The notes beneath the pieces were generated by a model. That model was not told the DNA's origin, did no database searches, and saw only the letters and a list, made by a program, of their open reading frames with translations. The translations under genes and the position numbers were made by a program. A stretch of 28,502 nucleotides of DNA from a virus, in IMG/VR virus record IMGVR_UViG_3300000234_000020, positions 1 through 28,502 of that record. The stretch is one strand, 5' to 3'. Of the stretch, positions 5,657 to 24,770 are shown piece after piece (the stretch's first letter is position 1; each line of letters opens with the position of its first letter).

Positions 5657-6394
5657 ATGCAAATCAAAAAACGTTTTGACAATAGTATCATTTTTGAAAA
5701 TGACGCGGATACAATGCGTCAGACCGTATTGGACGCAAAGAGCGCCGGTATTGGCCTGAGCGGAGCCGACCTGAGCGGAGCCGACCTGAGCGGAGCCAAC
5801 CTGAGCGGAGCCAAACTGAGCGGAGCCAAACTGAGCGGAGCCAAACTGAGCGGAGCCGACCTGAGCGGAGCCAAACTGAGCGGAGCCTACCTGTACGAAG
5901 CCGACCTGAGCGGGGCCAACCTGAGCGGAGCCTACCTGTACGAAGCCGACCTGAGCGGGGCCAACCTGAGCGGAGCCAACCTGTACGAAGCCGACCTGAG
6001 CGGGGCCAACCTGAGCGGAGCCAAACTGAGCGGAGCCAACCTGAGCGGAGCCAAACTGAGCGGAGCCTACCTGTACGAAGCCGACCTGAGCGGAGCCAAC
6101 CTGAGCGGAGCCTACCTGAGCGGAGCCAAACTGAGCGGAGCCTACCTGTACGAAGCCGACCTGAGCGGGGCCAACCTGAGCGGAGCTACCGGCGTTTTTT
6201 CCTTTGGGCCAATTGGCAAAATGGGCCGCATCGGTTACGCAGTCGATAGTGCCGATGGTGTTGTGTTTGCTCTCGGCTGTTTTTGGGGCAATGAAAAAGA
6301 AGCTATTACCGCCATCCGTGCCAAATATGGCGCGAAAAGCACGTACGAGGCGCAGGTCGAACTTGCCGCTAAAATCATCGTGGAGCGCCGATAA
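5657..6394 (+). CDS. Pentapeptide-repeat protein
   Basis: A protein of 245 residues. After 33 leading residues come 29 uninterrupted pentapeptides (residues 34-178) of the type L-S/Y-G/E-A-N/D/K/Y, with leucine at the core position, predicted to form a right-handed quadrilateral beta-helix. A C-terminal domain follows (about 180-245), including a GCFWG motif and a charged helical tail; similar tails are found on other phage pentapeptide proteins. Some family members (Qnr, MfpA) mimic DNA and bind gyrase, but here the exposed positions are fairly neutral, so that role is not assured. The start is supported by AGGAGA eight bases upstream. It is the first gene of the rightward operon and its stop overlaps the vWA gene start as TAATG. 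Confidence 0.9.
5756..6190 (+). repeat. 29 tandem 15-bp repeats coding the pentapeptides
   Basis: The unit CTGAGCGGAGCCAAC recurs 29 times with changes almost only in the last codon, a few GGG for GGA, and a sub-type CTGTACGAAGCCGAC. Higher-order blocks (a TAC-ending unit, the TACGAA unit, then AAC units) repeat as well. Such nucleotide identity points to recent expansion by slippage or unequal recombination rather than old divergence. Confidence 0.95.
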
Positions 6395-6954
6395 TGGATG
6401 CGCTCTCTAAAACCTTCATTCCCGGCTCCCTGGCATCCCAGGCGGTCAATACCGGCCACAGTATCGCAGAAACATTCGTCGGGGCCGATGTCATTGTGCT
6501 GGTTGATACCAGTTCCAGCATGCGCGACCGTGACAGGACAGACAAGTCACGCTATGAGCGCGCCTGTGATGAGCTTGCAAAAGTGCAAGCCAGCCTACCG
6601 GGTAAGATCGCCGTGCTGAGTTTTGGCGATATGGTTCTGTTCTGCCCGTCAGGCATACCCACCCAGCCATGCGGTATGACAAACTTTACCGGCGCTCTTT
6701 CTTTTGCCAAAGTCGCCGACATCGAAGGGATGAAATTTATCATCATCTCGGACGGTGAGCCCAATGATGAAAAAAGCGCCTTGCAGGTTGCCCGAACTTA
6801 CCAGAACAAGATTGATACCATTTTCATCGGCGGCGAAGGTGACGGCAGCGCGCGCTTTTTGGCGCAACTGGCAACGGCATCCGGCGGGCAGAGTATCAAG
6901 GATTTTTCAGCCAAGCAGTTAGAAATATCAGTGAAGGGATTACTCAATGCCTAA
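6394..6954 (+). CDS. Free-standing von Willebrand factor A (vWA) domain protein
   Basis: A protein of 186 residues covering a single vWA domain. The metal-binding MIDAS site is complete: D-x-S-x-S at 38-42 (DTSSS), a threonine at 96 or 99, and D120 in SDGEPND. vWA domains mediate metal-dependent protein-protein binding. Free-standing versions in phages have no agreed role. It is coupled to the pentapeptide-repeat gene by a TAATG overlap, which suggests that the two act together or are at least made in a fixed ratio. No transmembrane segment or signal peptide is present, so it is cytoplasmic. Confidence 0.85.
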   Translation: MDALSKTFIPGSLASQAVNTGHSIAETFVGADVIVLVDTSSSMRDRDRTDKSRYERACDELAKVQASLPGKIAVLSFGDMVLFCPSGIPTQPCGMTNFTGALSFAKVADIEGMKFIIISDGEPNDEKSALQVARTYQNKIDTIFIGGEGDGSARFLAQLATASGGQSIKDFSAKQLEISVKGLLNA

Positions 6955-7288: not shown

Positions 7289-8776
7289 ATGCTAACCCAA
7301 CCCAAAACACTGGCCGATGAGTTGATAACAGACGGCCTATCTCAGCAAGACGCCGACGCGCTGCAACTTGCCTACGGGCAACAGCCTGATTTTGTGGCCG
7401 GTATGGCTGCTGTGGTGATGCTGCTTGCCCTCGACGAGATACCCGACCAGCGCCCGCCACAGGGTGAACCATGGTCAAGCATCTGGGATAATTGCTCGAA
7501 AGATCTGACGCGCAAAGGCGAGGCGTTTAGCGATTTCATCAAAACTCAGCCCCCCGATTTGGCCGCCGTCCTCGCGCAAGTTGTTGAGATGAAAGTCAGA
7601 AACAAACAAGCGTGGTGGTCATCCACCCTTACCGGCCAAAATGCGAACAAGAGCCCAGAGTTTTACATGAGCATCTTGGAGCATTTCGGTTATCGGTTTT
7701 CGCTCAATAAATGCACAGATACAATCGAGTGCAACGGCCATCCGATCAATGATTACATCGCTGCCGAGATACGCGCAAAGGTCAGGAGCGCCGGTATAAA
7801 GGATACTAAAGCGGTCGAAGATGCGTACACGGCGGCGGCATACAGGAAACGCTATCACCCTGTCCAGAACTACCTCGAGCGCCTAAAATGGGACGGTCAC
7901 GATCACATCACCACCCTTACCGGCTTTTTTGAAGATGACAAGCGCATATTCCCGGAGTTCTTGCGCCGTTGGTTGATTGGAGCGGTTGCCAAAGCCTACC
8001 GGCCTGTAAGGACGCGGGTATTGGTGCTTGACAGCGCTCAAGACATCGGTAAGAGTAAATTTGTCGAATGGCTTGCCCTACCGATGGAGGACTATTTCCA
8101 ACAGGGAAGCATCGCCCCGGATAACAAGGATCACCGCATTTTGCTTTTATCAAAATGGATCTGGGAAGTTCCCGAATGGGGAACGGTTGCCAGGCGTGCC
8201 GACCGTGAAGCGCTGAAAGCATTTCTCACCCAAACTTATATCAACGAGCGCGGAGCCTACCGCAAGTTCCAAACCTCCGGGCCTGCTCTGACTTCGTTCA
8301 TTGCGACCGTGAATAACGAAATGGGACTGTATAACGACCCTACCGGCTCTACCCGCTTTATGACCTGCTACATCACCAAGATCGATTGGAAGGGCTACAG
8401 GCGTACGATTGATGTTAATCAGATTTGGGCGCAAGCTTATGATTTATACGTCAACGGGGAGAGTTGGGAACTCGACGACGCAGAGACGAAACGGGCAGAC
8501 GAGATCAACAAAGAGTATCAGGTTATGGATTTAGTTGAAGAGACGATTGGGCAGCTTTTTGAGATCGAGCCAGATAACCACCTGCTGTGGTGTTCAAGCC
8601 TGAACATCATCAACCATCTGAAACAGAAGGGAGATCTCAAAGCCGGTATTGAGATTGACGTGCGCAAACTTGCATCAGCCCTTACCCGCATGGGCCTGCA
8701 AAAGCCGATACAGCGGAGCATCGCCGGGGTAAATGTCAGGGGTTACTACGGGATAAGCATAAAATATAACCCATGA
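7289..8776 (+). CDS. VirE-family phage replication ATPase/helicase
   Basis: A protein of 495 residues, GGAGAT upstream. The order is typical of VirE-type primase-helicase ATPases: a helical N-terminal part, YHPVQNYLERLKWDG at about 190-203, the P-loop (LVLDSAQDIGKSKF, GKS at 254-256), then W-I-W-E-V-P-E-W (about 289-296), R-A-D-R-E-ALKAFLT, and T-x-N followed by DPTGSTRF, matching the sensor/arginine region of the family. They act with a primase to unwind the phage origin. The first P-loop glycine is replaced by serine/alanine and an aspartate (D252) precedes IGKS, which is unusual. It is probably the partner of the PrimPol gene at 10868. The stop overlaps the next ATG (ATGA). Confidence 0.85.
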   Translation: MLTQPKTLADELITDGLSQQDADALQLAYGQQPDFVAGMAAVVMLLALDEIPDQRPPQGEPWSSIWDNCSKDLTRKGEAFSDFIKTQPPDLAAVLAQVVEMKVRNKQAWWSSTLTGQNANKSPEFYMSILEHFGYRFSLNKCTDTIECNGHPINDYIAAEIRAKVRSAGIKDTKAVEDAYTAAAYRKRYHPVQNYLERLKWDGHDHITTLTGFFEDDKRIFPEFLRRWLIGAVAKAYRPVRTRVLVLDSAQDIGKSKFVEWLALPMEDYFQQGSIAPDNKDHRILLLSKWIWEVPEWGTVARRADREALKAFLTQTYINERGAYRKFQTSGPALTSFIATVNNEMGLYNDPTGSTRFMTCYITKIDWKGYRRTIDVNQIWAQAYDLYVNGESWELDDAETKRADEINKEYQVMDLVEETIGQLFEIEPDNHLLWCSSLNIINHLKQKGDLKAGIEIDVRKLASALTRMGLQKPIQRSIAGVNVRGYYGISIKYNP

Positions 8777-9387
8777 AAATCTTGATTGCTTGTGAGTTTA
8801 CCGGAAGAAATAGAGATGCTTTCGCGGCTTTAGGTCATGAGGCGTGGTCTTGTGATTTATTGCCGAGCGAAACAAAGGGTAATCACTATCAAGGCGATGT
8901 GCGCGATATGCTCTCTGAAAAATGGGACATGATGATTGCACACCCCCCCTGTACTTTTCTTAGCTATGCAGCTAATCATGTTTGGAATGCACCTGGTCGG
9001 GCCGAGTTACGCGAAGATGCAATGAAGTTTTTTATGCTATTTGCTAACTCAAATATCCAAAAAATCTGTATTGAAAAACCGTTAGGCTATCCCGGCAAAG
9101 TATATCGAAAGCCTGACCAAATTATCCATCCCTATTATTTTGGGGATAGAGAACTAAAAAGGACTTGCTTATGGTTGAAGAATTTGCCTAAACTTTGGTG
9201 GTGGAAAGAAGATGATTTATTTGGCAAACGCACAATGACAGAATACCCGGAGCCAACATATATTGATAAAACTGAACGCGCAAAGAAAAGATATTTTTCA
9301 GATGCAAAGCATGGTGGACACGAAAGAAGCCGCTCGTTTGGTGGAATTGCTCAGGCAATGGCCGAACAGTGGGGCGGTAGCTGTTAG
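8773..9387 (+). CDS. Small cytosine-methyltransferase-like phage protein
   Basis: A protein of 204 residues. It begins with a Rossmann-like strand (MKILIACEFTGRNRDAF, cofactor-loop position) and has HPPC at 57-60 (the catalytic PC loop of C5-cytosine methyltransferases) and IEKP at 100-103 (ENV-like motif VI). It lacks the usual target-recognition domain and is about 100 residues shorter than complete enzymes, as in a widespread phage family annotated as DNA cytosine methyltransferase. Activity is therefore plausible but unproven. It is visibly richer in A and T than its neighbours and carries just one iterated GCCGGTA-type core, at its 5' end (8799, in the variant form TACCGGA), both suggesting recent acquisition. 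It overlaps the helicase stop by four bases. Confidence 0.75.
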   Translation: MKILIACEFTGRNRDAFAALGHEAWSCDLLPSETKGNHYQGDVRDMLSEKWDMMIAHPPCTFLSYAANHVWNAPGRAELREDAMKFFMLFANSNIQKICIEKPLGYPGKVYRKPDQIIHPYYFGDRELKRTCLWLKNLPKLWWWKEDDLFGKRTMTEYPEPTYIDKTERAKKRYFSDAKHGGHERSRSFGGIAQAMAEQWGGSC

Positions 9388-9436
9388 CCTCTGTTACTCT
9401 CTGTTACTCGTTTACCGGCTGTTTTGTTTACTCTAG

Positions 9437-9454
9437 CAGATATAACAGATAATA
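9437..9454 (+). repeat. 18-bp repeat with an inverted copy at 26004-26021
   Basis: CAGATATAACAGATAATA here is the exact reverse complement of 26004-26021. The same two noncoding regions also share CTGTTAGYCTCTGTTA (9381-9396 and 26123-26138) and CTGGGAGAG (9514-9522 and 26019-26027). See the findings. Confidence 0.7.
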
Positions 9455-9481
9455 GTGATTAAGAATTACAGTATTTATAAT
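9453..9481 (+). promoter_or_regulatory. Possible rightward promoter in the 9388-9568 gap
   Basis: TATAAT at 9476-9481 is consensus, but the best -35 (TAGTGA, 9453-9458, 17-nt spacer) matches only half. It would serve the small genes starting at 9569. The gap is AT-rich and contains tandem CTGTTACTCT units and the palindrome AGACTTGTTAGTCT (9502-9515). Confidence 0.35.
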
Positions 9482-9568
9482 ACTTTAGCAAACTCCATGT
9501 TAGACTTGTTAGTCTGGGAGAGCATAGTTTATCAGGCGCAAGAGCGCCGGTATAAGAGGGGATTTACA

Positions 9569-9905: not shown

Positions 9906-10133
9906 ATGTATCTATCCGATCAAGAAATAGCAGCAACGAAAAAGAAGCCGGTAGTGGTTTGTGCGCTCTCGCCTATCTGCCCACGATCCCCACGTTTGGG
10001 GCGGTTGGATGCGGGACGTTATCACCATTCGCGCACCCGAGGGCAAGAAGTTCGTTATGGCTCCCGACACACACTACCGGCGCTTTTGCAAATGTGGCGC
10101 AGAGCAAAAAGGACGCGGGGATGCGGCGGGTAG
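9906..10133 (+). CDS. Small hypothetical protein, frame doubtful after residue about 20
   Basis: ATG 9906 has AGGAGA at good spacing, so translation very likely starts here (MYLSDQEIAATKKKPVVV). The frame stays open for 75 codons, but its later part is arginine-rich and low in natural features, whereas the overlapping frame (see the next entry) looks more protein-like from about 9961. Either the two are overlapping genes or an indel near 9940-9960 has separated one gene of about 80 codons into two frames. Confidence 0.4.
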   Translation: MYLSDQEIAATKKKPVVVCALSPICPRSPRLGRLDAGRYHHSRTRGQEVRYGSRHTLPALLQMWRRAKRTRGCGG

Positions 10134-10152
10134 AAAGGTGGAGCCGGTATGA
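10009..10152 (+). CDS. Small Cys-containing protein coupled to the methyltransferase gene
   Basis: From ATG 10009 this frame gives 47 residues (MRDVITIRAPEGKKFVMAP, then HYRRFCKCGAEQKGRG). The frame is open upstream to about 9955, with a GTG at 9961 encoding SAHDPHVWGGW before the ATG, so the real start is uncertain. FCKCG could be half of a metal site. The stop overlaps the methyltransferase ATG (ATGA), arguing that this frame is translated. Confidence 0.45.
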   Translation: MRDVITIRAPEGKKFVMAPDTHYRRFCKCGAEQKGRGDAAGRKVEPV

Positions 10153-10860
10153 GAAGCGACTATACTTTGTATCATGGCGATTGTCTGGATATTTTGCCGA
10201 CGCTGGCAGCGCAGAGCATCCACGCAATCATTACAGACTTACCATACGGCACGACACAATGCAAATGGGATACGATTATCCCATTCCCTGACTTGTGGCG
10301 CGTGGTCAAGCACGTTCTGAAGCCGCACGGCGCATTTGTCACGACCGCCAGCCAACCGTTTACATCGTTGCTGATTTGCTCTAATCTGGATTGGTTCAGG
10401 TATTGCATGATTTACGAAAAAACCACTACCAACCGGTTTTCTTGACGCGCAAAACAGACCGATGAATGATTACGAGGATGTTTGTATATTTTCAGAAAAA
10501 CAAACTGTATATAATCCGCAAGGAGTTAAGCCGCAAACCAAGCCGCAAAACGAAGTATACGGAAAATTTAATTCCAGTTACATGACAACCGGCACAAATT
10601 ATCCGCGCAGAATTATTAGATTTAAGCGGGATAGCAACAAGGAACACCCAGCCCAAAAGCCATTATTTTTATACGAGTACCTTATCCGCACCTACACCAA
10701 CCCCGGCGAAACTGTGCTAGATTTGACGATGGGCAACGGCACAACCGGAGTAGCCGCAATCCAGACCGGGCGGCGCTTCATCGGGATTGAAAAAGACGCG
10801 GCTTATTTCGCTGTGGCAGGGCGCAGAATTGCCAACGCACAGCCGCCGCTATTCATCTGA
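10149..10860 (+). pseudogene. DNA N6-adenine/N4-cytosine methyltransferase, split by a frameshift
   Basis: The first part (10149-10445) holds the catalytic DLPYG at 30-34 (a DPPY-type motif IV) and TTQCKWD. The second part, in another frame, holds the AdoMet-binding region LDLTMGNGTTGVAAIQTGRRFIG near its end, plus HPAQKP. This is the beta-type motif order (catalytic first, cofactor second). Near 10427-10435 the reading must move by one base: the alternative frame continues as PTGFLDAQNRPMNDYEDV, exactly the family pattern after EKT. Removing one base restores a single protein of about 236 residues. The shift may be a real inactivation, a sequencing error or programmed slippage. Composition is AT-rich, and no GCCGGTA motif occurs from 10150 to 10930. 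Confidence 0.8.
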
Positions 10861-12299: not shown

Positions 12300-12850
12300 C
12301 TTTCCTTCAACAGGGAGGAGAAAGGAGAACAAGGCTCTTTCAGTATAGCAAAGAGCCGGTAAAAAGTCAATCTCATCTCATACACAATCAGGCCAGACGA
12401 TGCAACCTTTGTACCGCTGTTCGTCCATGCACCAGTACCAGCATTTGTATACAGGCTTAAGCTTGTACCGGCGCTCTGGATGCGGATACGCCCTGGTGTA
12501 GTTTGCGGTGTGCTGTTATCAGTAATTGGGCCAATGACAGATGACCACGCCATATCAGTAATTGTTGTGGCGGGGACAGGGGCGGGGATCGTGAAATAGG
12601 TCTGGCCACTTGTGCCGGTGTTTGGTTGTCTGAATGCTACCGATATTCCGCGCCCGTCTGATTTGTAACGGTAAATCGCGCCCGCCGGTACTGCGCTAAA
12701 AACGGTAGGCACGGCGGCATAATTGAACCACTCGGGCCAACCAAGCGGAAAAGCAATGCGGCTTATTGCCACGTCGGTTATTGCCGCGTTAGCAATCACG
12801 TAATCGGTATTGGTGATGATCGTGAGCAGGGTCGCCGCAACGGTTTGCAA
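12290..12850 (-). CDS. Putative distal tail/fibre protein, start uncertain
   Basis: A 186-residue strand-rich protein with aromatic and glycine-containing turns (EWFNYAAVP, GAIYRYKSDGRGISVAF), like phage receptor-binding or fibre-tip domains. No ATG exists in the first half. The listed start is TTG 12850; the frame is open to a CTG at 12880 just after a TAG, and the residues between (PGGAYKYGV) look coding. No good ribosome site is visible. The final 25 codons run across low-quality sequence and into the terminator stem, so the C-terminus may be altered. As last gene of the tail operon it is where host-range proteins usually lie. Confidence 0.5.
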   Translation of the reverse strand: MQTVAATLLTIITNTDYVIANAAITDVAISRIAFPLGWPEWFNYAAVPTVFSAVPAGAIYRYKSDGRGISVAFRQPNTGTSGQTYFTIPAPVPATTITDMAWSSVIGPITDNSTPQTTPGRIRIQSAGTSLSLYTNAGTGAWTNSGTKVASSGLIVYEMRLTFYRLFAILKEPCSPFSSLLKESPR

Positions 12851-12983
12851 GACCCCGTATTTATACGCCCCGCCCGGCAGCTAAACTATTCGGAGTAAGC
12901 CCGCAGGCGATAAGCAAGCGGGTTGGAAAAAATCAGGAAGGGAGAAGGTGAAATGATGAGCGATATTGTATTACTCCCATGCA

Positions 12984-14039
12984 TCACCTCTCGAAGAAAA
13001 AGCCAAGCAAGTCGATATTGCCTGAGCCGGCCGCACTCATGCGGTAGTAAATAGATTGATTACGAGTCGGCAAATTGGTCACAACTCTCAACCCTACGCC
13101 AACACTCGTAATCTCAACACTGACAGTACCCAGAAATATGCCCGCGCCGGCAGGTGTAGTGACGTAAAGCATTGCGCCAGACACCGTGACAGGCGATGCG
13201 TTTGCCAGTGATATAGCAGTCCACGTTGTTGCCGTACCGTCAATCAGCACCCGCCGCATATTAATGAATACTGAAGTTACCCAAGCAACATAATTTGTGA
13301 TCGGATTGTGGTCGAAATCGTACAGATTTCCGCTGTCATCCGTCCGCACACTGCCTATATACCGCCTGCTTGTGTTACCGTTTTTCGTCCGCGCCACCCC
13401 GAAATATGGACTGGCTGGCGCAGTCGTCACAATCTCAACGTCGGGTGCGCCACTGTTGAGATACAGATAAATGTGGTACCAACTGTTCCCCGACAGCGAT
13501 AATGACGATTTTGTTATTGCCGAAGCAACATTGATTAATGTGCCATCAGGCAAAACAGCGTATCCCGACTCGATAGTTAATGCAGTCCCACTAACCCGTA
13601 GCATTTTCAGACCGCTCAAGGCGTTCAATGGATACGTCGGAGACGTTCCTGCCACATGCCACGCCGCGCCGTCTGACACAAACATCGCGCTCCCCCCCGG
13701 CGCGATGTTGTCAAATCCGGCGGGCATGAGCAAGGAATGGGTATCGCTGGCATTGACGATAAAAAAGGGATGATTGTCTGCCCCAAACGCAGGAAATGTT
13801 ATAGCGCGATTTGCCCCGCTTGGAGTAAGCCGCTGTACTGGTAAATCGGTATTGAGTAATGCCCGTGTTGCACTAATTGTTTCTGTGTTGGTAAAGCCTG
13901 GGATAAGCGGTGAAAGCTGTATCATTTCGATAAAGCCGGTATCGGGGGTGCCGCCCATGTCGTTTACAGCGCGGATACGTTCTGTGCCATCAAAGGTGAC
14001 AATGTGATTGTTTTCTGCGGATAGTTTTAGGTCTGCCAT
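12984..14039 (-). CDS. Tail fibre / receptor-binding-type structural protein
   Basis: A protein of 351 residues, almost entirely beta-rich and low in cysteine, with many T, S, N and G. It has an N-terminal part (about 1-130) with the SDGAAWHVAG turn often seen in tail proteins, a middle (about 145-240) resembling the SYYHIYLYLNSG and RTKNGNTSRRYIGSVRTDDSGNLY type of fibre domain, and a C-terminal strand region ending in FFFER. It probably binds the host surface. Its ATG overlaps the stop of the 976-residue tail gene (TAATG). Few iterated motif copies occur in it. Confidence 0.6.
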   Translation of the reverse strand: MADLKLSAENNHIVTFDGTERIRAVNDMGGTPDTGFIEMIQLSPLIPGFTNTETISATRALLNTDLPVQRLTPSGANRAITFPAFGADNHPFFIVNASDTHSLLMPAGFDNIAPGGSAMFVSDGAAWHVAGTSPTYPLNALSGLKMLRVSGTALTIESGYAVLPDGTLINVASAITKSSLSLSGNSWYHIYLYLNSGAPDVEIVTTAPASPYFGVARTKNGNTSRRYIGSVRTDDSGNLYDFDHNPITNYVAWVTSVFINMRRVLIDGTATTWTAISLANASPVTVSGAMLYVTTPAGAGIFLGTVSVEITSVGVGLRVVTNLPTRNQSIYYRMSAAGSGNIDLLGFFFER

Positions 14040-16969
14040 TATGGGATGCTCCCTTGAATTGATACACTTGCATAAATCCAGTTTTTACCGGATGCTGAAA
14101 TAGTCCAGCCGGTAGAAACTGACGCGGCTCCCGGCTTTGTGCTGGTTAAGCCTGCCCAGTTGCTATCTGCCGAAGCGTTCATCCGTTGCGTCTGACCGGC
14201 GGTTGGTATACACGTTGTGTCGCTGCCTTTTTCGATTGCTAGGATGTCGAAAACAATATCGGTTGATACGCTATCGATTGTTAGCGCCGGTCCCGTTCCT
14301 GTCCCGGTTGTCTGGTCAAAATTTCGGAATGGGTAAATCTGATCCGCGCCAAAGAATGAGATTGCGTTGACTTCAAACCAATCGTTAGCCGGGATGGTTA
14401 CAACTACATTGGCAGTACCAACCGGAGGAGCCGGTAAGTACCATAACTCGAACTGCGGATAGTTATTGTTGTCGTAACGGTTTTTGTAATACCGTCTCAG
14501 GCTTTCGCCGCCATAGGTGACAGAAGTCGCATTGTTGAAAGCACGCTTTGAGATTGCGACAATAAGCATCCGGTCATTACCGGCGCTTATTGTGTGCGCA
14601 AAAGTGGAGGTAGTACCGTTGGCAGTTGTGGCAACAGATGAGGCGTCAACGGTCACGGTATTTCGCGCCCCGTCAAACGGATGAAAATAAATAGGCGTCC
14701 CAGATGGATTACCGGCATAACCGTAAATGTTATCTACCGGCTTCATATCCGAGTTATACAAGTCTGTCCAGTTCAGCCATTTTGTTTTAGTGTTCAGCGG
14801 CCAGAAAACAACGCCGGTAGTCTGAGTGGTGGTATCGTCCTTACCGGCTGCGTATAACTCGCTCACATTTGCCGCGCTTAAGATGCGATTATAGATGCGC
14901 GGGTTGACGACTTGCATATTTAGATAGACCGTAGGGGTCATTTGTGAAAAACCGACCTGCATACCAAGTCCGCCATCCATCGCCGAAAAGTATAAAGCGT
15001 CAGGGTCTATTATTGCATCTGGTATGGCAACTTCTGCACCGTCAATATACATTTTAGGCTTTGTTCGCTCATTTACGCTACCATCATGCGTAATAACAAC
15101 CTGATGCCAATCATTAGCCGACACGGGCGTAGCATGTTGCCATTCGCCAACATCTAAATCACCTCCCATTATTCCATCGGTATAAGAGCGTCTGTAAAAA
15201 ATCTTTTGCTCCTGAATGCCAATTGCCCAACTATATCGGGTTGCAACAATAGGATGCCATTCCAACCCGAAAAAATGAAAATATCCAGTAGATGGGGATG
15301 ATTTGTAATTCAACCATACGCTCATGCTGTATTGTTTCATCGGTATAAGCGCGGGGTCGTGATGATAGGTTACTGCCTTGAAATTTTCGCTAACTTCCAT
15401 GCCCAGCATTGATAAACCAAGCCGTAAGGATAGCATTGCCTTTGTTGTCCAACTAAACATGATAAGTCTGCCTTTCTCAATTTTCCACTCACGGCCACAA
15501 ATATAGTGATAGCCATCAATAGCCGCAAGAGTTGATTTTAGTCTAATCAAATCTCCAGTTCCGAGGTTGAGAAATGCGCCCATCATATTTGGGGATTGAT
15601 TAGCTATTGCGTATATACGATCTATGCGCGTTTCGGGTTCACGGTCAAACTCTACAATTGCGCTCGAGGCCAGTTCGGCCACCATCAAAGTTTTCTGATA
15701 TTTCTGGTGCAGAGTTTTTCCGTTGACGCCGTTATCCTGTATTGATTGTAATGCACTTTCAGTATGCTCAATAGGATTATAAGTATAAATCCCATAACCC
15801 CGGCAATTGAACTGATACAGCCAGGCCGAAGTACCAGAATTTGATACTACATGAGTAAAACCTTCAGTACCGTAGCTCGCAACAACGCTTATATTAGCCG
15901 TGTAGTTTGTTCCCGTCCCGTCTTGGTTGACAGCCGCCAAATAATCCGTAGTAGCAACAGGGTCGATCATGTTCTGCGCGTTGATTGGCGCACCGCCGTT
16001 GGGATCTGCGTAATACCCTTTTATCGTGATAGAGCCGCCGCCCGGTACTTGGATCGGCTGCGCGAGGCTAAATAAAATCTGTGGGCTTGTGTCAACGCTG
16101 CGCGGATAGGCGAAATTCCCCAGGCGATTTAGTAAATTATCACCGTGAGAAATGTCAGCAGAGATAAAGGTATTGTCACCATCAAATGTTCCAGTTTCCC
16201 AATTTTCACAGAGTTCATACCCGCCATCCTCGCGCAATTCATACCCGCCATCCTCGCGGAGTTCAATACCGGCATCTTCGATAAATTCATCAAAGGTTGT
16301 TTCAGCCCGCAAGCCGTTGCGCCGGTGATGATTTTCGAGTACTAACGTTCCGCCGTAAGTTGTGTCATGGCGCATGTAGACATAGCCCATCTCAGCGAGT
16401 GCGGATTTTGCTAATTCTGAATAGGCTTTAGTCTTACTGGTCACGGTATCAAAAACTGTTGGAAATGTAAAAACGCCGGTATCAAGGGATACGGCCTGCG
16501 GTGCTATCGGCGTGTATAAGAGCGTTTGAGTTATTACCTCGTCCGCTGTTTTGTCGGTCAAAATGCCAGGGTTTACAATCGGGTGTTTACTGGCAAAATC
16601 AAACCAATCCAAGCAGGTTACGCTTACCGTTGGCATTCCCTTTTGACGCGGATCAATCTCAATCCCGCCCGGCGTAGCGATGCGCCCAAATATCGGGTAG
16701 TTTTGCGTCTTGTAGGTAAACACAATCTTGACCGGGATACCAACATGCCAACCCGATAACGCGGAGGCATGGCCGGGGCTGTACTTGCCTGTAAAGTTTT
16801 TGAGCGTAAACGAAAACTCGCCAACATCGGCCACCCTGTCTACCGGCGAATTTGTTGCAAACCCATCACGCCCAGCAACAGAGCCGGTAATAACGTCGGC
16901 TGTTATGTCGGTCCAAACGCTATTGAGATACGCCCAAACCGCATAAACCAAGTCGGTTACATGTGTCAT
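14039..16969 (-). CDS. Large tail tip protein with LamG-like and C-terminal sandwich domains
   Basis: A protein of 976 residues. The N-terminus (about 1-130: VWTDITADVITG, then EFSFTLKNFTGKYSPG, and VSVTCLDWFDFAS) looks like the tail-tip/distal-tail or Tal-hub region of siphophages. Residues about 231-255 contain three tandem copies of an ELREDGGY-like unit. Residues about 545-725 form a LamG/concanavalin-type jelly roll (SMSVWLNY, NDWHQVVITHDGS, MYIDGAEV, and RIYNRILSAANVSELYAAG), a carbohydrate-binding fold common in phage adhesion. The C-terminal about 200 residues (TSVTYGGESL, WYLPAPPVG) are a further beta-sandwich. It probably combines tail-tip structure and host-glycan recognition. It is coupled to the tape-measure gene (TAATG). 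Confidence 0.75.
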   Translation of the reverse strand: MTHVTDLVYAVWAYLNSVWTDITADVITGSVAGRDGFATNSPVDRVADVGEFSFTLKNFTGKYSPGHASALSGWHVGIPVKIVFTYKTQNYPIFGRIATPGGIEIDPRQKGMPTVSVTCLDWFDFASKHPIVNPGILTDKTADEVITQTLLYTPIAPQAVSLDTGVFTFPTVFDTVTSKTKAYSELAKSALAEMGYVYMRHDTTYGGTLVLENHHRRNGLRAETTFDEFIEDAGIELREDGGYELREDGGYELCENWETGTFDGDNTFISADISHGDNLLNRLGNFAYPRSVDTSPQILFSLAQPIQVPGGGSITIKGYYADPNGGAPINAQNMIDPVATTDYLAAVNQDGTGTNYTANISVVASYGTEGFTHVVSNSGTSAWLYQFNCRGYGIYTYNPIEHTESALQSIQDNGVNGKTLHQKYQKTLMVAELASSAIVEFDREPETRIDRIYAIANQSPNMMGAFLNLGTGDLIRLKSTLAAIDGYHYICGREWKIEKGRLIMFSWTTKAMLSLRLGLSMLGMEVSENFKAVTYHHDPALIPMKQYSMSVWLNYKSSPSTGYFHFFGLEWHPIVATRYSWAIGIQEQKIFYRRSYTDGIMGGDLDVGEWQHATPVSANDWHQVVITHDGSVNERTKPKMYIDGAEVAIPDAIIDPDALYFSAMDGGLGMQVGFSQMTPTVYLNMQVVNPRIYNRILSAANVSELYAAGKDDTTTQTTGVVFWPLNTKTKWLNWTDLYNSDMKPVDNIYGYAGNPSGTPIYFHPFDGARNTVTVDASSVATTANGTTSTFAHTISAGNDRMLIVAISKRAFNNATSVTYGGESLRRYYKNRYDNNNYPQFELWYLPAPPVGTANVVVTIPANDWFEVNAISFFGADQIYPFRNFDQTTGTGTGPALTIDSVSTDIVFDILAIEKGSDTTCIPTAGQTQRMNASADSNWAGLTSTKPGAASVSTGWTISASGKNWIYASVSIQGSIP
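16200..16276 (-). repeat. Tandem 24-bp repeats coding ELREDGGY units
   Basis: Three in-frame units read on the minus strand as IELREDGGYELREDGGYELC; two are nearly identical at the nucleotide level and the flanking ones are diverged. They sit inside the tail-tip gene, between its N-terminal hub-like part and the following strand-rich region. Confidence 0.8.
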
Positions 16970-18618
16970 TATTGGCCTACCGATTGCAAACCAGTGAGGA
17001 AGGCGCGCGCGAGACGATTTTCGTCAACCATCTTCTTATTGATTAGCTCCTGCAAGAGTGCATCTGTGCGGCTTTCCCGGTTGGCCTGTGTGATCGTGAC
17101 AGTCTCGCCACCACTCGCAGTATTCCCGCCGGGCATCATAAAACTCTCGTTACCACCACCAAACGGGATTGTAAACGAACCGCCGCCCGCGTGGGGGGTT
17201 GATTGATTTGCGTACTGGTACGCATAGCCACCCGGTAAGGTTTGCGGATCAACGCCAGATGTCGAGAAAATGAAATTGATATTTCTCTGAGTTGGGATCG
17301 CGTTGATTGACTGCGTGATTTTGTCGGCTTCACTCCACGCGGCTTTGGCCTTTGCTACAACATCTTCAGACCACAAACCCCAGGCCACTTGCTGATCGGC
17401 AAACGCGGCAAACTCGTTCTCTGTCCAACCATCGCGGGCAAGGTTTTGAGCGAGTATGTCTGAGATAAACTGTAACGTTTGTTTCTCGCGCTCTTTGGCG
17501 AGATCGGCTTCAGCCTGCTTGATTTCATCTAACTTTTTTAGCGAACCCTGGATCTGTTCACTCTGTTCCCAATAACCTTGAGCGCGAAACTTGGCTAAAT
17601 CCTGCTCGGCCTGGATGCGCTGATCGTTCAAACTCTGTGACTTTTCGGTGTAGCTTTCTTCGGCTGACTGAATGCTATTTATCAACCCAATGCGCCCGGA
17701 GAGTACTTCCGATAATGCCTTTGCGGCTTCGGCGGCGGCTTTCTCTTTTTCTTCGAGCTGCGCCTGAGTATCGGCCAGGGTAACGGATGCAAACGTTGCA
17801 TCTTCCATTGCTTCTGTGTTCTGGGCGTACGCTTCCTTGATGTCATTTATGAGCATTACCAGACCTACCGGCGCAATTGCCCGGAGTAGGTCTTTCCACT
17901 CAAAACCGGCTTTGATATTGTTGTTTATGCTTGTAACCACAGCAGCGAAAATGGGTAACAATCCCATCGAAAGAGTAACCTTCAACCCTTCGATGCTATC
18001 ATTCCACTCGTCAATCGCCAGGCGCGCCTGTTCTGCACTATCAATCTGATCTTGTGACAGAATTAGACTTTGACTGACGGCGGCGGCTTGCGCTCGTAAT
18101 GCCACGCTGCCCTGGTCAAGTGCCTTTGCCCACTGCAAACCACCACGCCCCAAGTTCTCAATGATAAAAGCGTTTTTCTCTTCGGCTGAGTTGAGAGAGC
18201 GGTATTGATCGCTAAGTTTTGCAAGAGTGTCAATGTTGGGGGCCAAGCCGTTTTTTGTAAGAGCGCGAGTAGCTGCGAGGGCTTCTTCGGCGCTGATTTC
18301 GTAATCGTCAAGCACCTGTATAAATCGGCTTGTCTCTTCGGCGCTCTCTCCCCCGGCGCGTACCATATTATCAACGGTCATAGCGTATTCAATACCCGTC
18401 TCAATTACATCTTTGAGCGCAAGCCCCACGCCGACAAGCACACCAATAAGAGCGGCGTTTGTAGACAAAAAGCCCGTCATTTTCTCACGGGCATTTTCAA
18501 GACCTGGTGCAAGCGCCTTAGATTGCTTTGTAGTCTCGCCGAGGGATTTATTAACCTTCTCAATTACAGGCGTCCCGTCGTCTTTTACGCTAAAACGGAT
18601 TAGGATTTCATCTACCAT
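16969..18618 (-). CDS. Tape measure protein
   Basis: 549 residues from the preferred ATG at 18618, which has GAGGTG six bases upstream; a GTG at 18627 is the alternative. It has the expected layout: a helical N-terminus, hydrophobic segments near residues 55-75 (AALIGVLVGVGLALKDVI) and 220-235, a long charged coiled-coil region about 270-385 (LEEKEKAAAEAAKALSE to LAKEREKQTLQF) and a glycine-rich C-terminus before a helical end. Tape-measure length sets tail length at about 0.15 nm per residue, which predicts a short tail of about 80 nm. It follows the G and T chaperone frames and overlaps the T stop by seven bases, the standard siphovirus arrangement. Confidence 0.9.
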   Translation of the reverse strand: MVDEILIRFSVKDDGTPVIEKVNKSLGETTKQSKALAPGLENAREKMTGFLSTNAALIGVLVGVGLALKDVIETGIEYAMTVDNMVRAGGESAEETSRFIQVLDDYEISAEEALAATRALTKNGLAPNIDTLAKLSDQYRSLNSAEEKNAFIIENLGRGGLQWAKALDQGSVALRAQAAAVSQSLILSQDQIDSAEQARLAIDEWNDSIEGLKVTLSMGLLPIFAAVVTSINNNIKAGFEWKDLLRAIAPVGLVMLINDIKEAYAQNTEAMEDATFASVTLADTQAQLEEKEKAAAEAAKALSEVLSGRIGLINSIQSAEESYTEKSQSLNDQRIQAEQDLAKFRAQGYWEQSEQIQGSLKKLDEIKQAEADLAKEREKQTLQFISDILAQNLARDGWTENEFAAFADQQVAWGLWSEDVVAKAKAAWSEADKITQSINAIPTQRNINFIFSTSGVDPQTLPGGYAYQYANQSTPHAGGGSFTIPFGGGNESFMMPGGNTASGGETVTITQANRESRTDALLQELINKKMVDENRLARAFLTGLQSVGQ

Positions 18619-18887
18619 GCAAGACACCTCATTTCACGAATTTTGGCTACGATCTCAAACTGGCCGGGGTTGCGCTCTGCCCACTGTGCAAATCGGGTAG
18701 AGCCTGCCTGATATGATTTTACAGCACGATAGATATTCAGGCAAGCGCCCCACCTTCTGAGCTTTCGAACCGGGATTGTGCCAGGATATAAAGCGGATGC
18801 GCCCCAAATCTCAGCTTGAAACGCTTCTGCTAATTCTGGCGGCGGCGGATTTTCGTCACTATCTTCTGCATAATCCGCCGTCGCCAA
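18612..18887 (-). CDS. Tail assembly chaperone T part, made by -1 frameshift
   Basis: This frame has no normal start: the first residues are encoded by TTG GCG ACG and no ribosome site is seen. It is open upstream to the slippery site and therefore joins the G frame after a -1 shift, giving a GT fusion of about 235 residues (18612-19315). The T part is acidic and proline-rich at first (DSDENPPPP), then helical with WGASALYPG and VKSYQAGS. In siphophages G and GT bind the tape measure and recruit tail tube subunits and are absent from the virion. The relative position and size agree. Confidence 0.75.
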   Translation of the reverse strand: MATADYAEDSDENPPPPELAEAFQAEIWGASALYPGTIPVRKLRRWGACLNIYRAVKSYQAGSTRFAQWAERNPGQFEIVAKIREMRCLAW

Positions 18888-18889
18888 TA

Positions 18890-19315
18890 TTAGTTTTTTG
18901 GGATTTCGACCGCTTCCAAATAGATCACGCCGACCTTCTCAGCCAACCACGCCACGAGCCCCGGTTTCATTTTGTCAACGTCGCCCGCAACCATTACCGG
19001 CGCTTTTATCCAGCCCGCCGTGATTGCGGCCTTGACCATCATCCCGCGATTGCTTGACATGGTAAGCGTTTCGTTTGCTTCGAGCACTTCAACAGCGGCG
19101 GTGATGTTTTTCGCGGCTTCGGCAAAGATGACCAAGAGCGCCGGTAAGGATTGCGCCGTTACGTTAATCGTCTTTAGCTGCTCCATCGTTGCGCGTAAGT
19201 ATGGCTTGGCATCTTCCGACCGCAAGGCGCGGGCGGCGCGTTCCCACGCTTCCACGTGCTCTTGCAGCGGTTCGTCAATAATCTCAAACGCCTGTTTTCC
19301 CAGTGTGTAAATCAT
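18890..19315 (-). CDS. Tail assembly chaperone G
   Basis: A 141-residue protein between the tail tube gene and the tape measure, ending with the codons CCA AAA AAC TAA. Helical character, with EIIDEPLQEHVEAWERAARALRS-type segments at the start and a hydrophobic middle (LPALLVIFAEAAKNITAA). The position, size and slippery end identify it as the G product. It is predicted to be made in large excess over the frameshifted GT form and to chaperone the tape measure in the cytoplasm. Confidence 0.75.
   Translation of the reverse strand: MIYTLGKQAFEIIDEPLQEHVEAWERAARALRSEDAKPYLRATMEQLKTINVTAQSLPALLVIFAEAAKNITAAVEVLEANETLTMSSNRGMMVKAAITAGWIKAPVMVAGDVDKMKPGLVAWLAEKVGVIYLEAVEIPKN
18893..18899 (-). promoter_or_regulatory. 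A AAA AAC slippery heptamer for -1 frameshifting
   Basis: On the minus strand the last codons of G read CCA AAA AAC TAA. The heptamer A AAA AAC is in the correct phase (X XXY YYZ), directly before the stop. A -1 slip gives CTA ATA TTG GCG, which continues into the T frame without a stop. Confidence 0.75.
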
Positions 19316-19318
19316 AGG

Positions 19319-19714
19319 TTATACGGTGGTCGGGGTGACTGCGCCATTAACACGCAACGAGATGGTGATTGCGGTCATCTGGTTATGCGTGATCGGATCG
19401 CTCACGGATGTGACAAAGGCCTGAGCGTTGCGCTTCGGCTTGCCAGCGGTTGCGCCCTGCGGCCAAAACTCGGCGGTCGCTTCGGCGGTCGTTACTTCCA
19501 TCGCGGCGCGAATGGTGCCAGCAACATCATCCCAGGCATTGACTGTGATGGTCGAAGAACGCTCGCTCGGGTAAAATTCTTTATCAAGCTGGTTTGCACC
19601 GGTCGCTTCGAGTTCATCACGAGTACGCGGCCAGTCAACAGATACCAGCGTTCCGGCGGGGAAGGTGAAGCCGCCGAACTTGAAAGCCATGTTTTTTCCG
19701 TCAAACTTTGCCAT
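19319..19714 (-). CDS. Major tail (tube) protein
   Basis: A 131-residue protein just upstream of the G/T chaperone genes. Its beta-rich sequence (MAFKFGGFTFPAGTLVSVDWPR near the start, then TITVNAWDD and AQAFVTSVSDPITHNQ with a strand-rich end) fits the single-domain tail tube fold of siphophages; EGSR-like loops (YPSERSSTITV) match that fold. It polymerises around the tape measure into the tail tube. AGGAACC lies upstream of the ATG. Confidence 0.75.
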   Translation of the reverse strand: MAKFDGKNMAFKFGGFTFPAGTLVSVDWPRTRDELEATGANQLDKEFYPSERSSTITVNAWDDVAGTIRAAMEVTTAEATAEFWPQGATAGKPKRNAQAFVTSVSDPITHNQMTAITISLRVNGAVTPTTV

Positions 19715-19726
19715 TTTTCAGGTTCC

Positions 19727-20095
19727 TTATTGGGGCAGGGAAACAACGCCAAACTTAACGTCTGTGGTGGATGCTTCGAGGTAGACGTTGCCGTCGGTCT
19801 GTACCCAACCCTCACGTGAGAACGGGCCGAAAACGGCATACTCACCCGCGCCGATACTGTACGCGGTAATGTCGCCGGTACGGTTGTTTTTTGGATCTGC
19901 AACAGAGTTGATCGTCACGGTGCCAGCACCAGCGCCGGTATTGTGGGCAAATACCAAATCTTTGCCACTGGCAGAAAATTGGGCTTTATTCACCAAGACG
20001 GTGACAACCATCGCCACGTCCAACGAATTGGCTGTAGGTTGGATTGCCGGGAAATTGCCAGGAGCGGCGGTTTTTACAAGTGTCAAACGTGCCAT
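19727..20095 (-). CDS. Virion-associated small protein, possible tail/head decoration
   Basis: A 122-residue strand-rich protein. The middle (HNTGAGAGTVTINSVADP) and end (IGAGEYAVFGPFSREGWVQTDGNVYLEASTTDVKFGVV) show the pattern of a small beta-barrel module that is common beside phage tail tube genes, sometimes called a minor structural or decoration protein. It may duplicate a tube-like fold or coat the tail. No enzyme motif is present. Confidence 0.55.
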   Translation of the reverse strand: MARLTLVKTAAPGNFPAIQPTANSLDVAMVVTVLVNKAQFSASGKDLVFAHNTGAGAGTVTINSVADPKNNRTGDITAYSIGAGEYAVFGPFSREGWVQTDGNVYLEASTTDVKFGVVSLPQ

Positions 20096-20110
20096 CTGAT
20101 TACCTCTTTC

Positions 20111-20557
20111 TTAGGTATAAATGTCGGTACGAATTGTGATAATTTCGCGGCGAAATGTGCGCCCGCCTTCGTCAACGATCATATCAGGATCGGACATGCC
20201 AACGATTGTTAGCCTGCTCCAATCGGATGTCTCTTGGTTGCCGTTGAATAAGTCACATAACGTCTTTTCTGTGTCATCAATTTCATCTTCGCTATTTTCG
20301 GCCGTCCAACTATTACCGGTATCCTGGTAAAGCACGAACACATAAACGCGAAACTGAAAAGAGCTATCCGCCGTAACCTGGTCGGCGGCTTTCATCTCGC
20401 GCATACTGCCAACGGATGAGACAACGATGTTACGCGCCTTCGACAAGTTTTCGACCGTCTTGTAGGCAAACACGTCCCACGTTGCGCCGAAAGCGGTATC
20501 AATCAACGCGGCAACGGCTTTTCTGATCGTCTTGCGATTGGTTGCGCTACTTGGCAT
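20111..20557 (-). CDS. Tail terminator / tail completion protein
   Basis: A 148-residue protein. The helical N-terminus (TIRKAVAALIDTAFG) leads into alternating strands (IVVSSVGS, FQFRVYVFVLYQ), a charged helix (ENSEDEIDDTEKTLCDLF) and strands ending REIITIRTDIY. This is the usual pattern of ring-forming tail terminators, which cap the tube at the head side. The position between the neck and tube genes supports it. It overlaps the gp10-like gene by 11 bases. Confidence 0.65.
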   Translation of the reverse strand: MPSSATNRKTIRKAVAALIDTAFGATWDVFAYKTVENLSKARNIVVSSVGSMREMKAADQVTADSSFQFRVYVFVLYQDTGNSWTAENSEDEIDDTEKTLCDLFNGNQETSDWSRLTIVGMSDPDMIVDEGGRTFRREIITIRTDIYT

Positions 20558-20966
20558 ATAACACCGCGTTCCTGATTGTATCTTTTGCGCGCTCGACTAC
20601 TTGCTCGCCTATTTCGGATATAGTCCGGTCATAAAAGGCATGTTCACCACCGTGCGCGTTTTCGTAAATACCATAGATTACCGGCTTATTTTTCGTTTTC
20701 GTCCTGCGAGGCGAGACACTTTTAGGGTCGATACTCACTGTCCCTTGCAGTTCGTCTATGTCCATCCGATGAGACGATTTGAGCGCACCACCGCCGGTAT
20801 ACTTGCCCACGTGCGTAATCTGGGTCGCGTACCTGTGCAGACTGATAATCGCATCCTTGACGGCTTGACCGGCTGCACCTTCGGGCCTGACAGCGGCGAT
20901 ACGGCGATTATTCCGCTCCTGCGCTTTTTGGATACCCTGGATTGACAACTCTGGTTTATACGCCAT
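20547..20966 (-). CDS. HK97 gp10-like neck/tail-completion protein
   Basis: 139 residues from ATG 20966, which has GAGGAT upstream; the ORF extension to 21035 is not supported. The C-terminal motif IYENAHGGEHAFYDRTISEIGEQVV is the family signature (G-x-E...A-x-G...H-x-F-x-x-R/T). The N-terminal half is a basic helical region (IQKAQERNNRRIAAVRPEGA). Family members join the head connector to the tail terminator. It overlaps the head-closure gene by 11 bases. Confidence 0.75.
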   Translation of the reverse strand: MAYKPELSIQGIQKAQERNNRRIAAVRPEGAAGQAVKDAIISLHRYATQITHVGKYTGGGALKSSHRMDIDELQGTVSIDPKSVSPRRTKTKNKPVIYGIYENAHGGEHAFYDRTISEIGEQVVERAKDTIRNAVLYAK

Positions 20967-21282
20967 TGCGGAGATCCTCAACGATGATGCGCAAGCGGGT
21001 ATCAGCGGACGGGAGCCAATGCCATTTCTCGACATGGTAAATAGGATACTTCACCGCGCCGATTACCAGCTTATCGCCCTTGCGTATATCCGGCGCATCC
21101 TGCAGGCAGGTTTCCCAAGTCACATGCGGGGTATTGATTTCGAGCCGTTGTTTAGTCTCAGCATCTACCGGCGCAAGTGGGGTTATTTTCAGCCCCGAAA
21201 GATTTGCAACAAAGCCGGTAAGAGATGCGCGCTCGGTTGACGCCGTGACGGTGGTCATAGCCGCAAAGCTGTAATCAATCAT
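20956..21282 (-). CDS. Head closure / stopper protein
   Basis: A 108-residue protein with a beta-barrel-like pattern (KGDKLVIGAVKYPIYHVEKWHW) and a strand-rich end (RLRIIVEDLRNG). The KGDKL...Y-x-V-x-x-W layout is typical of head-tail joining stoppers such as those adjacent to gp10-like proteins. Its place between the adaptor and gp10 genes fits. It overlaps the adaptor gene by eight bases. Confidence 0.65.
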   Translation of the reverse strand: MIDYSFAAMTTVTASTERASLTGFVANLSGLKITPLAPVDAETKQRLEINTPHVTWETCLQDAPDIRKGDKLVIGAVKYPIYHVEKWHWLPSADTRLRIIVEDLRNGV

Positions 21283-22099
21283 GCGTCATCCTACGAACTA
21301 CTACGCCGCCAGTCGGGGAGCCGTCGCCACTACCGCCACCTAACATCTCGGTAATTGCAGCGCGTTTTTGGCTTAGGCTCTGTTGATACGGGCCTGTGCG
21401 TGTATCAACTTCAACCGCGTAATCGCTCTGCAACTGCTCGAGCATCTCGCGCCGGGTCGCATCAATCGCGGTTTGGACGGTCAACGGGTCAAGCCAACGC
21501 ACATCAGGATTGCCGGTATCAGGATCAATCGCCCCCGCATTGCGGAGAGCTGCGTCAATGGCGTAGGTATAGGAGCCTTCGGTCAACGCCCCGTTTGGGG
21601 TAGTGTTCAAGCCGCGCTCAGTTGCGATACGTCCAAGTTTTGTATTTACTGCTGTTGCAATTTGCGCACGGGTGACAGGGACAAACCAGAGCCAGGCGTC
21701 ATCAATCCGCAAATCGCCGGGGGCGCTCTCGTTTTCGATCTTAACGTTATAGGTTGTACCAGGGACAAGGCCAATTGTGTAAATCGTCTCAGTCCACGTT
21801 GCGGTAGTTGCAACGAGGTTATTTGTGACAACGGGCAAACCTGCGCCGTCCGTGATCGATACTGTCGCCTGCGCCCCAACAAGAGCGCCGGTAGGGGATT
21901 TTGCACTTATGTGTAAGCTATAGGCGCGGCTATGGATGACCGCGAAAGCCTGAGAGATTGCCCCACCTACCGGCAAATTCGCCATGCCGTAATGCTCATC
22001 TCCATCGGATACAAGATAAACCGCGCCGCCGGTCGAAGTCCAACCGTTTAGGTTATGTGCGAAGTCGTGATTGATAAACAGTGATCGACCGGCGGGCAT
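21275..22099 (-). CDS. Head-tail connector adaptor fused to a carbohydrate-binding-like domain
   Basis: A protein of 274 residues in two parts. Residues about 1-138 read as a beta-sandwich of the carbohydrate-binding type (LFINHDFAHNLNGWTSTGG, SLHISAKSPTGALVGAQATVSITDG, TYNVKIENESAPGDLRIDDAW). Residues about 140-274 are helical (TRAQIATAVNTKLGRIATERG, DPLTVQTAIDATRREMLEQL), matching connector adaptors that sit below the portal. The genomic position (capsid genes to its right, stopper to its left) supports the adaptor half. A glycan-binding fold on a neck protein is unusual and could project from the collar. The fusion call relies on pattern reading only. Confidence 0.6.
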   Translation of the reverse strand: MPAGRSLFINHDFAHNLNGWTSTGGAVYLVSDGDEHYGMANLPVGGAISQAFAVIHSRAYSLHISAKSPTGALVGAQATVSITDGAGLPVVTNNLVATTATWTETIYTIGLVPGTTYNVKIENESAPGDLRIDDAWLWFVPVTRAQIATAVNTKLGRIATERGLNTTPNGALTEGSYTYAIDAALRNAGAIDPDTGNPDVRWLDPLTVQTAIDATRREMLEQLQSDYAVEVDTRTGPYQQSLSQKRAAITEMLGGGSGDGSPTGGVVVRRMTHD

Positions 22100-22102
22100 G
22101 GG

Positions 22103-22396
22103 TTATTCCTCGCTCTTGATTTCAGCGTCCATCGGGAGCGCGTCATCAATCTCACGCGATGGGCTAAACGGTTTCGCCAGGGGGCGACCGGCGCGCTGAT
22201 TGCCGTCAGCTTTTTTGTACGCGGCTTTTTCATCAGCCGACGCGAGACGCCAGCCGGGGAGTTTGAGCCGCACGCGGGCCAGTTCTTCACTGACCACGTG
22301 CATCGCGCCTTTGGGGTTGACGATCAGATAAAACTTTTCAACCTCATCAGCGGCGAGAGCCGGGGCAACATAAGCAGATTTCTTATTCGGAGCCAT
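22103..22396 (-). CDS. Small structural-module protein of unknown function
   Basis: 97 residues from ATG 22396, with AAGGTG upstream. It has a short N-terminal strand (FYLIVNPKGAMHVVSEELARVRLK), a basic middle (ADGNQRAGRPLAKP) and an acidic end. The first half resembles small head-associated proteins that bind the capsid or the connector. No clear family. It lies between the decoration-like gene and the adaptor gene. Confidence 0.5.
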   Translation of the reverse strand: MAPNKKSAYVAPALAADEVEKFYLIVNPKGAMHVVSEELARVRLKLPGWRLASADEKAAYKKADGNQRAGRPLAKPFSPSREIDDALPMDAEIKSEE

Positions 22397-22413
22397 ATTC
22401 ACCTTTCTGTAAT

Positions 22414-22806
22414 TTATGAAGCGTGAGTAATGGCCGGGGAGGCGTACAGCTTGCCGTCTGGCATTACCAAGATAAGATAATTCGTCAGCGCGCCCGCTTC
22501 TGTCATGGCGATATCAATATCACCATCAGCCTCAGACGTAACGATACCGGCGAGGTTTGCAGTCCATTCAATCAGCAAGCCATCAGTACCGGCGGCAGTT
22601 CCACCGCTCGGGGCTGTGCCGATTGCATCTCCATTAGCATCTGCAGACAGATACCAAAGCAAGGTAACACGTTCGCTGATTTCATTGCCGTTTTCACGAT
22701 CAATCAACTGGATTGATACGGTTTTCACATTTGCGGCTTCGGCAGCCACCATAAAAACGGGTTTGATTTTGATGCTTTTGCTTTCGGCGTTATCGAAGAG
22801 AGCCAT
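22414..22806 (-). CDS. Possible capsid decoration/head fibre-type protein
   Basis: A 130-residue strand-rich protein directly downstream of the major capsid gene. Ig-like features include VKTVSIQLIDRENGNEIS, VTLLWYLSADANGD, LIEWTANLAGIVTSEADGDIDI and the ending YLILVMPDGKLYAS. Phage Ig-like or decoration proteins often occupy this site and coat the capsid. No enzymatic residues are seen. The exact family is unknown. Confidence 0.5.
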   Translation of the reverse strand: MALFDNAESKSIKIKPVFMVAAEAANVKTVSIQLIDRENGNEISERVTLLWYLSADANGDAIGTAPSGGTAAGTDGLLIEWTANLAGIVTSEADGDIDIAMTEAGALTNYLILVMPDGKLYASPAITHAS

Positions 22807-22860
22807 TTTTTATTTCTCCAATTGGGCGGGCATTGCTACCCGCCCAACTCTATGTCAATC

Positions 22861-23757: not shown

Positions 23758-23839
23758 TTTAGCTAATCCTTTTTCAGGTTATGGATGGATTAGCAGGTTA
23801 TACGCTTTTTACGTGTTCGCCACGCCTGCAACAATTTTG

Positions 23840-24322: not shown

Positions 24323-24359
24323 GTCGGCCTTTCCCGGTTTTTACGCACCGCTGCGAAAA

Positions 24360-24716: not shown

Positions 24717-24742
24717 AAGATAATGCCTCCAAACTAATATCA

Positions 24743-24770
24743 AGTATACGACAATCCCCAAAAAAAACAA
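24743..24770 (-). promoter_or_regulatory. Leftward promoter of the capsid/tail operon
   Basis: On the minus strand TTGTTT (24770-24765) and TATACT (24748-24743) are 16 nt apart, about 30 bases before the first gene. A separate promoter is required here because the terminator at 26150-26174 should stop transcripts from the portal and MuF genes. The -35 match is imperfect. Confidence 0.4.

Follow-up and report, generated by a model that had tools for sequence, protein, structure and literature searches.

The 28,502-base virus record analyzed here (IMG/VR IMGVR_UViG_3300000234_000020), referred to below as the window, encodes an ordinary beta-class DNA amino-methyltransferase, a phage orphan of a common kind, whose reading frame carries a one-off break. 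Our best explanation of the whole, to which we assign a probability of roughly 0.9, is an ordinary phage methylase with one recent, singleton break that would have arisen either by an error in the consensus or by a fresh mutation. In the record, a net offset of one base between residues 91 and 95 breaks the frame once, and the break is very recent.

Rather than one uninterrupted reading frame, the gene occupies two on the plus strand. The N-terminal ORF (10149–10445, 98 residues, the last of which are off the family frame) bears motif IV, while the C-terminal ORF (10462–10860, 132 residues) carries HPAQKP and motif I and lies one base out of register with the first. The start codon at 10149 overlaps the stop codon of the upstream ORF as ATGA and is preceded by a purine-rich, Shine–Dalgarno-like GGTGGAG; no Shine–Dalgarno sequence was seen 5′ of the ATG at 10462. 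Both ORFs match the same profiles over segments that follow on from each other, as consecutive parts of one methyltransferase. The first ORF matches phrog_12862 at positions 2–92 and phrog_67 at positions 123–222, and the second matches them at positions 93–130 and 230–349, respectively, when its profile query is extended in frame to start 36 bases 5′ of its ATG. The read-through product, 236 residues from 236 codons with no stop or additional frame break, scored 220.5 bits against phrog_67 compared with 84.4 bits for the N half and 126.7 bits for the C half. The C half passes the gathering score of PF01555 (76.6 bits versus 26.7), and the Pfam search of the N half alone gave no PF01555 match, only a sub-threshold match to AviRa. 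The first-pass annotation had described an adenine or N4-cytosine methyltransferase cut in two by a one-base shift. Both ORFs are present as it described them, their adjacent profile matches make them halves of one beta-class amino-methyltransferase, and the one-base offset within a single gene is supported by these matches together with the confidently predicted read-through protein.

The read-through protein contains three sites that can be located by comparison with the family, all encoded on the plus strand. Motif IV (DLPYG, residues 30–34, positions 10236–10250) and motif I, the SAM site (DLTMGNGTTG, residues 191–200, positions 10720–10749), were placed by family columns, and between them lies HPAQKP (HPTQKP in the family; residues 166–171, positions 10645–10662), where Thr168 is present in 159 of 160 related loci. 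In the beta class of amino-methyltransferases, motif IV precedes motif I, and the same order is seen here, with the D-x-P-Y of DLPYG at residues 30–34 followed by the x-x-G-x-G of DLTMGNG at residues 191–197. An aspartate as the first residue of motif IV leans toward N6-adenine, which is probably the target base. Of the 68 positions conserved to 85% or more in the family, eight carry a different residue in this protein (D25H, R55H, L65T, W87M, W89Y, V113I, T168A, and S196N). At least eight such departures also occur in 18 of the 160 related loci, which were picked for their likeness to the window protein. The pattern is unusual yet within the range of the family; it may reflect mild decay. The earlier statement that the catalytic motifs are intact is mostly borne out, with motif IV reading DLPYG, but HPTQKP has become HPAQKP, the GSG of motif I has become GNG, and Trp89 is replaced by tyrosine.

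Relatives of this protein are widespread among phages. A tblastn search with the read-through sequence matched 922 of 50,697 phage records at E ≤ 1e-5, and in 657 of these a single place covered at least 80% of the query. The PF01555/phrog_67 orphans of Vibrio phage vB_VnaS-L3, Xanthomonas phages PhiXhv-7 and PhiXhv-18, and Burkholderia phage Bcep781 (gp10) share 46 to 50% identity with nearly the whole read-through; they align as single pieces, whereas the window gene is broken once. Peptide searches and alignments aimed at closer relatives gave none above 54% identity, and a DNA search among phages returned short matches only, none of which covered 80% of the query. An AlphaFold2 model of the read-through, built with 58 aligned sequences, reached a pLDDT of 89.2 and a pTM of 0.87, and the fold search with it gave 174 PDB chains at E ≤ 0.001; all among the 50 matches listed were methyltransferases, which points to a methyltransferase fold for the predicted structure. 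The best folds included the N6-adenine methyltransferases CcrM (6pbd), M.BceJIV (8urk), M1.HpyAVI (5hfj), and M.RsrI (1eg2), with query TM scores of 0.62 to 0.77, although identity to these four in the structural alignments was only 22 to 28%; MboIIA was a further close structural match. In sequence comparisons, CcrM, M.BceJIV, and M1.HpyAVI match best over the motif I half, whereas M.RsrI matches residues 11–212. As a working model of function, we take M.Phi145I, M.Phi93I, and M.Phi93DAM of 936-type lactococcal phages, for which protection against restriction enzymes is described as experimentally shown (PMC4190342). By analogy, the orphan methylase of the window would methylate phage DNA and thereby shield the phage from host restriction.

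The frame shift lies between residues 91 and 95, at about 10417–10431 on the plus strand, an interval that includes a run of six A's (10417–10422). This placement follows from the family columns, because Lys91 is conserved (lysine in 158 of 160 related loci), while Thr95 (94/160) and Gly96 (104/160) fit the second frame only. Ala100 (134/160) also fits only the second frame, and Phe97 (101/160) is encoded in both. The site proposed in the first pass, 10427–10435, overlaps this interval, and the bounds move slightly upstream. At residues 92–93, a profile of the 160 related loci gives the first frame +1.4 bits and the second frame −1.4 bits, mildly favoring a shift just after the A run by about 2.7 bits over two codons. 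The run had been named the prime suspect. It is a possible site of the shift, although the sequence does not single it out: the codons that follow it fit the frame of the first ORF slightly better, and six or more A's are found at these codons in 21 of the 160 related loci, where the frame is unbroken. The predicted core strand that spans residues 83–95 contains the shift.

Upstream of any start codon, the second frame continues the family sequence with TGFLDAQNRP (10432–10461, plus strand), as the first-pass annotation had noted in the form PTGFLDAQNRP. Residues 92–104, read in the second frame 5′ of its ATG, score +20.9 bits against the profile of the 160 related loci, a value not reached once when the 39 bases concerned were shuffled 20,000 times (maximum 11.5 bits), and the off-frame tail of the first ORF (residues 92–98) scores −1.9 bits. 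Because an old break would not keep a sequence that is used by neither ORF product, the break is recent; the frame was continuous until very recently or is continuous still.

In order to see whether relatives share the break, frame integrity was assessed in 239 related loci, 224 of which are distinct by DNA over residues 160–215. The first sample, the 160 loci used above, took the best 80 of 389 viral relatives and the best 80 of 317 relatives from genomes. The second took the best 80 of 582 viral loci, with the ranking based only on the C half, and one locus is common to both samples. In the first sample, whose ranking by whole-protein score is biased toward whole genes, residues 60–215 are spanned by one aligned piece in one frame in all 160 loci, and three (L104, L105, and L131) have an in-frame stop at residues 32–34. 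In the second sample, 77 of 80 are whole. The exceptions are L284 (880–1866), where the variable region contains an in-frame insertion of about 95 residues with a charged, EYDDAKR-like repeat; L321, where the methylase runs off the end of the contig; and L323, with an in-frame stop at motif IV. When compared with the window, as the first pass had suggested, none of the 239 loci (224 distinct) is broken at residues 91–95, and all 239 are continuous across residues 88–98.

Published phages do show breaks at other places in the family. Among the 40 matches listed in one phage search, only Mcat20 and Mcat22 were in two pieces, and OLIVR4 was the only one among the 60 matches listed in the read-through tblastn of phages. 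In Moraxella phage Mcat22 (L247, 1222–1985), the frame breaks in the variable region and the gene is annotated as two hypothetical proteins, while in Agrobacterium phage OLIVR4 (L249), the methylase is annotated as two genes, gp38 and gp39. We considered gp38/gp39 as a conserved natural split that would set a precedent for the window and rejected it, since the split comes from an exact tandem duplication of 77 bases. In L104, L140, L153, L227, and others, tandem or neighboring copies of the methylase family, whole or partial, were seen within one locus.

As for the cause of the break, we lean slightly toward an indel error in the consensus and put this at about even odds. Sharma et al. expected that a singleton frame break validated by BLASTp reflects a sequencing error and not an indel mutation (PMC3711429). 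Only one other contig of the same virus was found (L006, IMGVR_UViG_3300000230_000044); it covers window positions 12570–28502 (15.9 kb) and ends 1.7 kb short of the methylase gene. The two are identical there except for a substitution at 23167 and an indel at 24759, which lies in a C run beside eight A's. Homopolymer differences between assemblies of the virus thus do occur, one in about 16 kb, whether as errors or as real differences. Exact patterns from both halves of the gene gave no match among viral contigs, a search from which records near the window were possibly left out. By a rough estimate, one indel of either cause would be unremarkable in a window of 28,502 bases.

A genuine fresh frameshift mutation, and hence a recent loss of the methylase in the virus population with no error involved, is a serious contender at somewhat less than even odds. 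It is favored because errors do not abound in the assembly: the 12,341 window bases matched by relatives' ORFs, a figure that counts matches on either strand, showed no further break of a sense-strand frame. The changes at eight of 68 conserved sites, T168A and S196N among them, point the same way, as do the broken genes of the published phages (the 77-base duplication of OLIVR4 and the variable-region break of Mcat22). Against it, no close relative or second contig extends over the gene, so nothing shows the break to be shared or fixed. If the break is genuine, the first ORF would yield an N-terminal stub of 98 residues ending inside the core strand, and the C-terminal piece, lacking residues 92–104, would at best be weakly reinitiated; neither should be active. 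The first-pass view that an error and a recent inactivation would look alike is supported.

It is very unlikely that programmed frameshifting or transcriptional slippage yields the full protein from the broken frame. The run of six A's and a TGA-C stop do lie in or just after the shift interval, and both halves are still family-like. However, a programmed frameshift should be conserved in homologues, and a shift at this place is found in 0 of 239 related loci. The highly efficient bacterial slippage described in a review (PMC5009743) takes place on runs of nine A's or T's, and the run here has six. In addition, the codon before the stop (TCT) would be expected to re-pair poorly in the shifted frame, and the profile places the shift upstream of that stop. 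We give a slightly smaller chance still to the fuller proposal that the break is real and fixed, that an active methylase is made by recoding at 10417–10445, and that the stop-bearing inserts of other family members (described below) are perhaps decoded by ribosomal hopping.

Phase variation, in which the tract would toggle the methylase on and off, was also offered in the first pass, and we regard it as equally improbable. Phase-variable methylases are known (PMC3711429), and a homopolymer is at hand. However, six A's are short and unexceptional in a window with 38 homopolymers of six or more bases, they fall below the 7-nt minimum repeat used by Sharma et al. (PMC3711429), and all 21 of the 160 related loci with such a run are unbroken there. 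Least probable of all is a working split enzyme of two reassembling polypeptides: although the first ORF carries motif IV and the second motif I, residues 92–104 are in neither product, the break falls inside a predicted core strand, the second ATG has no visible Shine–Dalgarno sequence before it, and the family-like stretch 5′ of that ATG would not be kept. Overall, we found no positive support for phase variation, programmed frameshifting, or a working split enzyme.

The finding serves mainly as a caution: until the reads have been checked, one frame break in the contig of an uncultured phage gives weak evidence for an arms-race loss. A real break would add another example of methylase loss by a phage. 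The survey of the family is perhaps more useful, as it uncovered a NUMOD3/HNH endonuclease at the catalytic motif of the methylase together with short, stop-bearing, in-frame inserts, one of them stop-hop-like, that can be tested directly.

An aligned piece covers residues 28–40 in 237 of the 239 loci, and a stop inside or beside motif IV is present in four of these (L104, L105, L323, and L131), three of them distinct, as L104 and L105 are identical over 3,720 bases and represent one virus. The inserts are 6 or 9 bases long, in frame, and start with the stop codon. Motif IV reads CCG TAG CCG TAT in L104 (DPP-stop-P-YGTT), CCG TAG CTG TAT in L323 (DPP-stop-L-YGTT), and GGC TGA ATA GGA ATA in L131 (DLPYG-stop-I-G-ITACKWD). 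These stops do not look random. In exactly these four loci, an ORF matching NUMOD3 and/or HNH endonuclease lies directly upstream and overlaps the methylase start by ATGA (671–2241 in L104 and its duplicate L105, 512–2004 in L323, and 827–2205 in L131). Several of the Pfam matches are below the gathering score, and L131 matches NUMOD3 only, at 15.1 bits against a threshold of 20.4. Homologues of the L323 and L131 endonucleases, which are 41% identical to each other, were not found in the other 235 loci by tblastn at E ≤ 1e-5; this search covered homologues of these endonucleases only, over short upstream stretches (median 1.5 kb, below 700 bases in 26 of 239 loci).

The block formed by the endonuclease and the methylase N terminus looks mobile, because L104 and L323 share 92% identity over its 897 bases, though the rest of the two methylases is much less alike. 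The endonuclease ORF of L104 itself opens with a second methylase N terminus that ends at the same DPP, and in Vibrio phage VnaP (L330, 1819–2763), a related endonuclease follows a methylase N terminus ending at DLP. The endonuclease can also adjoin an uninterrupted methylase: Pseudoalteromonas phage H101 has a relative 0.4 kb beyond a methylase whose frame and motif IV are both unbroken. Phage searches for the HNH family returned the same three phage records, representing two distinct phages. Further carriers of the family were not found among plasmids, in 15 genomes, or in 398 genomes of one phylum, a set with no known matching genome.

On a plain reading, the arrangement looks like a homing endonuclease directed at the DNA that encodes the conserved motif IV; the inserts would destroy its target and inactivate the methylase. 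A bolder reading is that short ribosomal hops restore motif IV. The review PMC5009743 describes a “stop-hop” of synthetic constructs, in which a stop flanked by matched codons lets nine bases be decoded as one amino acid, and a homing endonuclease paired with the bypassed insert of T4 gene 60. The flanking codons of L104 are perfectly matched (CCG and CCG), as in the stop-hop form, and those of L131 nearly so (GGC and GGA, where a single codon separates the stop from the landing site), but those of L323 are unmatched (CCG and CTG), which counts against hopping. Rfam identified no introns in the L104, L105, L323, and L131 loci, giving one tmRNA match at chance level, and a literature search joining homing endonuclease, methyltransferase, translational bypassing, and phage led only to the same review.

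Elsewhere in the window, a suspected second broken gene just upstream of the methylase (9908–10152) was followed up, and its frames had no match in the phages or libraries tried. Three apparent frame transitions near structural genes fall on the plus strand across from genes of the minus strand, and we took them for shadow frames. A helicase query found no kin, and a primase query gave one weak match. A second predicted DNA methyltransferase (8773–9387) is one unbroken ORF that matches phrog_757 and has no Pfam match. A pentapeptide-repeat protein (5657–6394), the DNA of which contains internal repeats that are closely similar, is followed by a von Willebrand A match that falls short of the gathering score (6394–6954). 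On the minus strand, 136–945 encodes a phage protein that has a J domain (DnaJ, PF00226) in its interior. Between two minus-strand ORFs lies a near-perfect palindrome (960–998), perhaps a terminator. Finally, an AT-rich element of about 65 bp is present in inverted copies at 9429–9491 (plus strand) and 26029–25965 (minus strand) that are 82% identical, with a weak third copy at 26143–26121; it is perhaps a shared promoter or operator.
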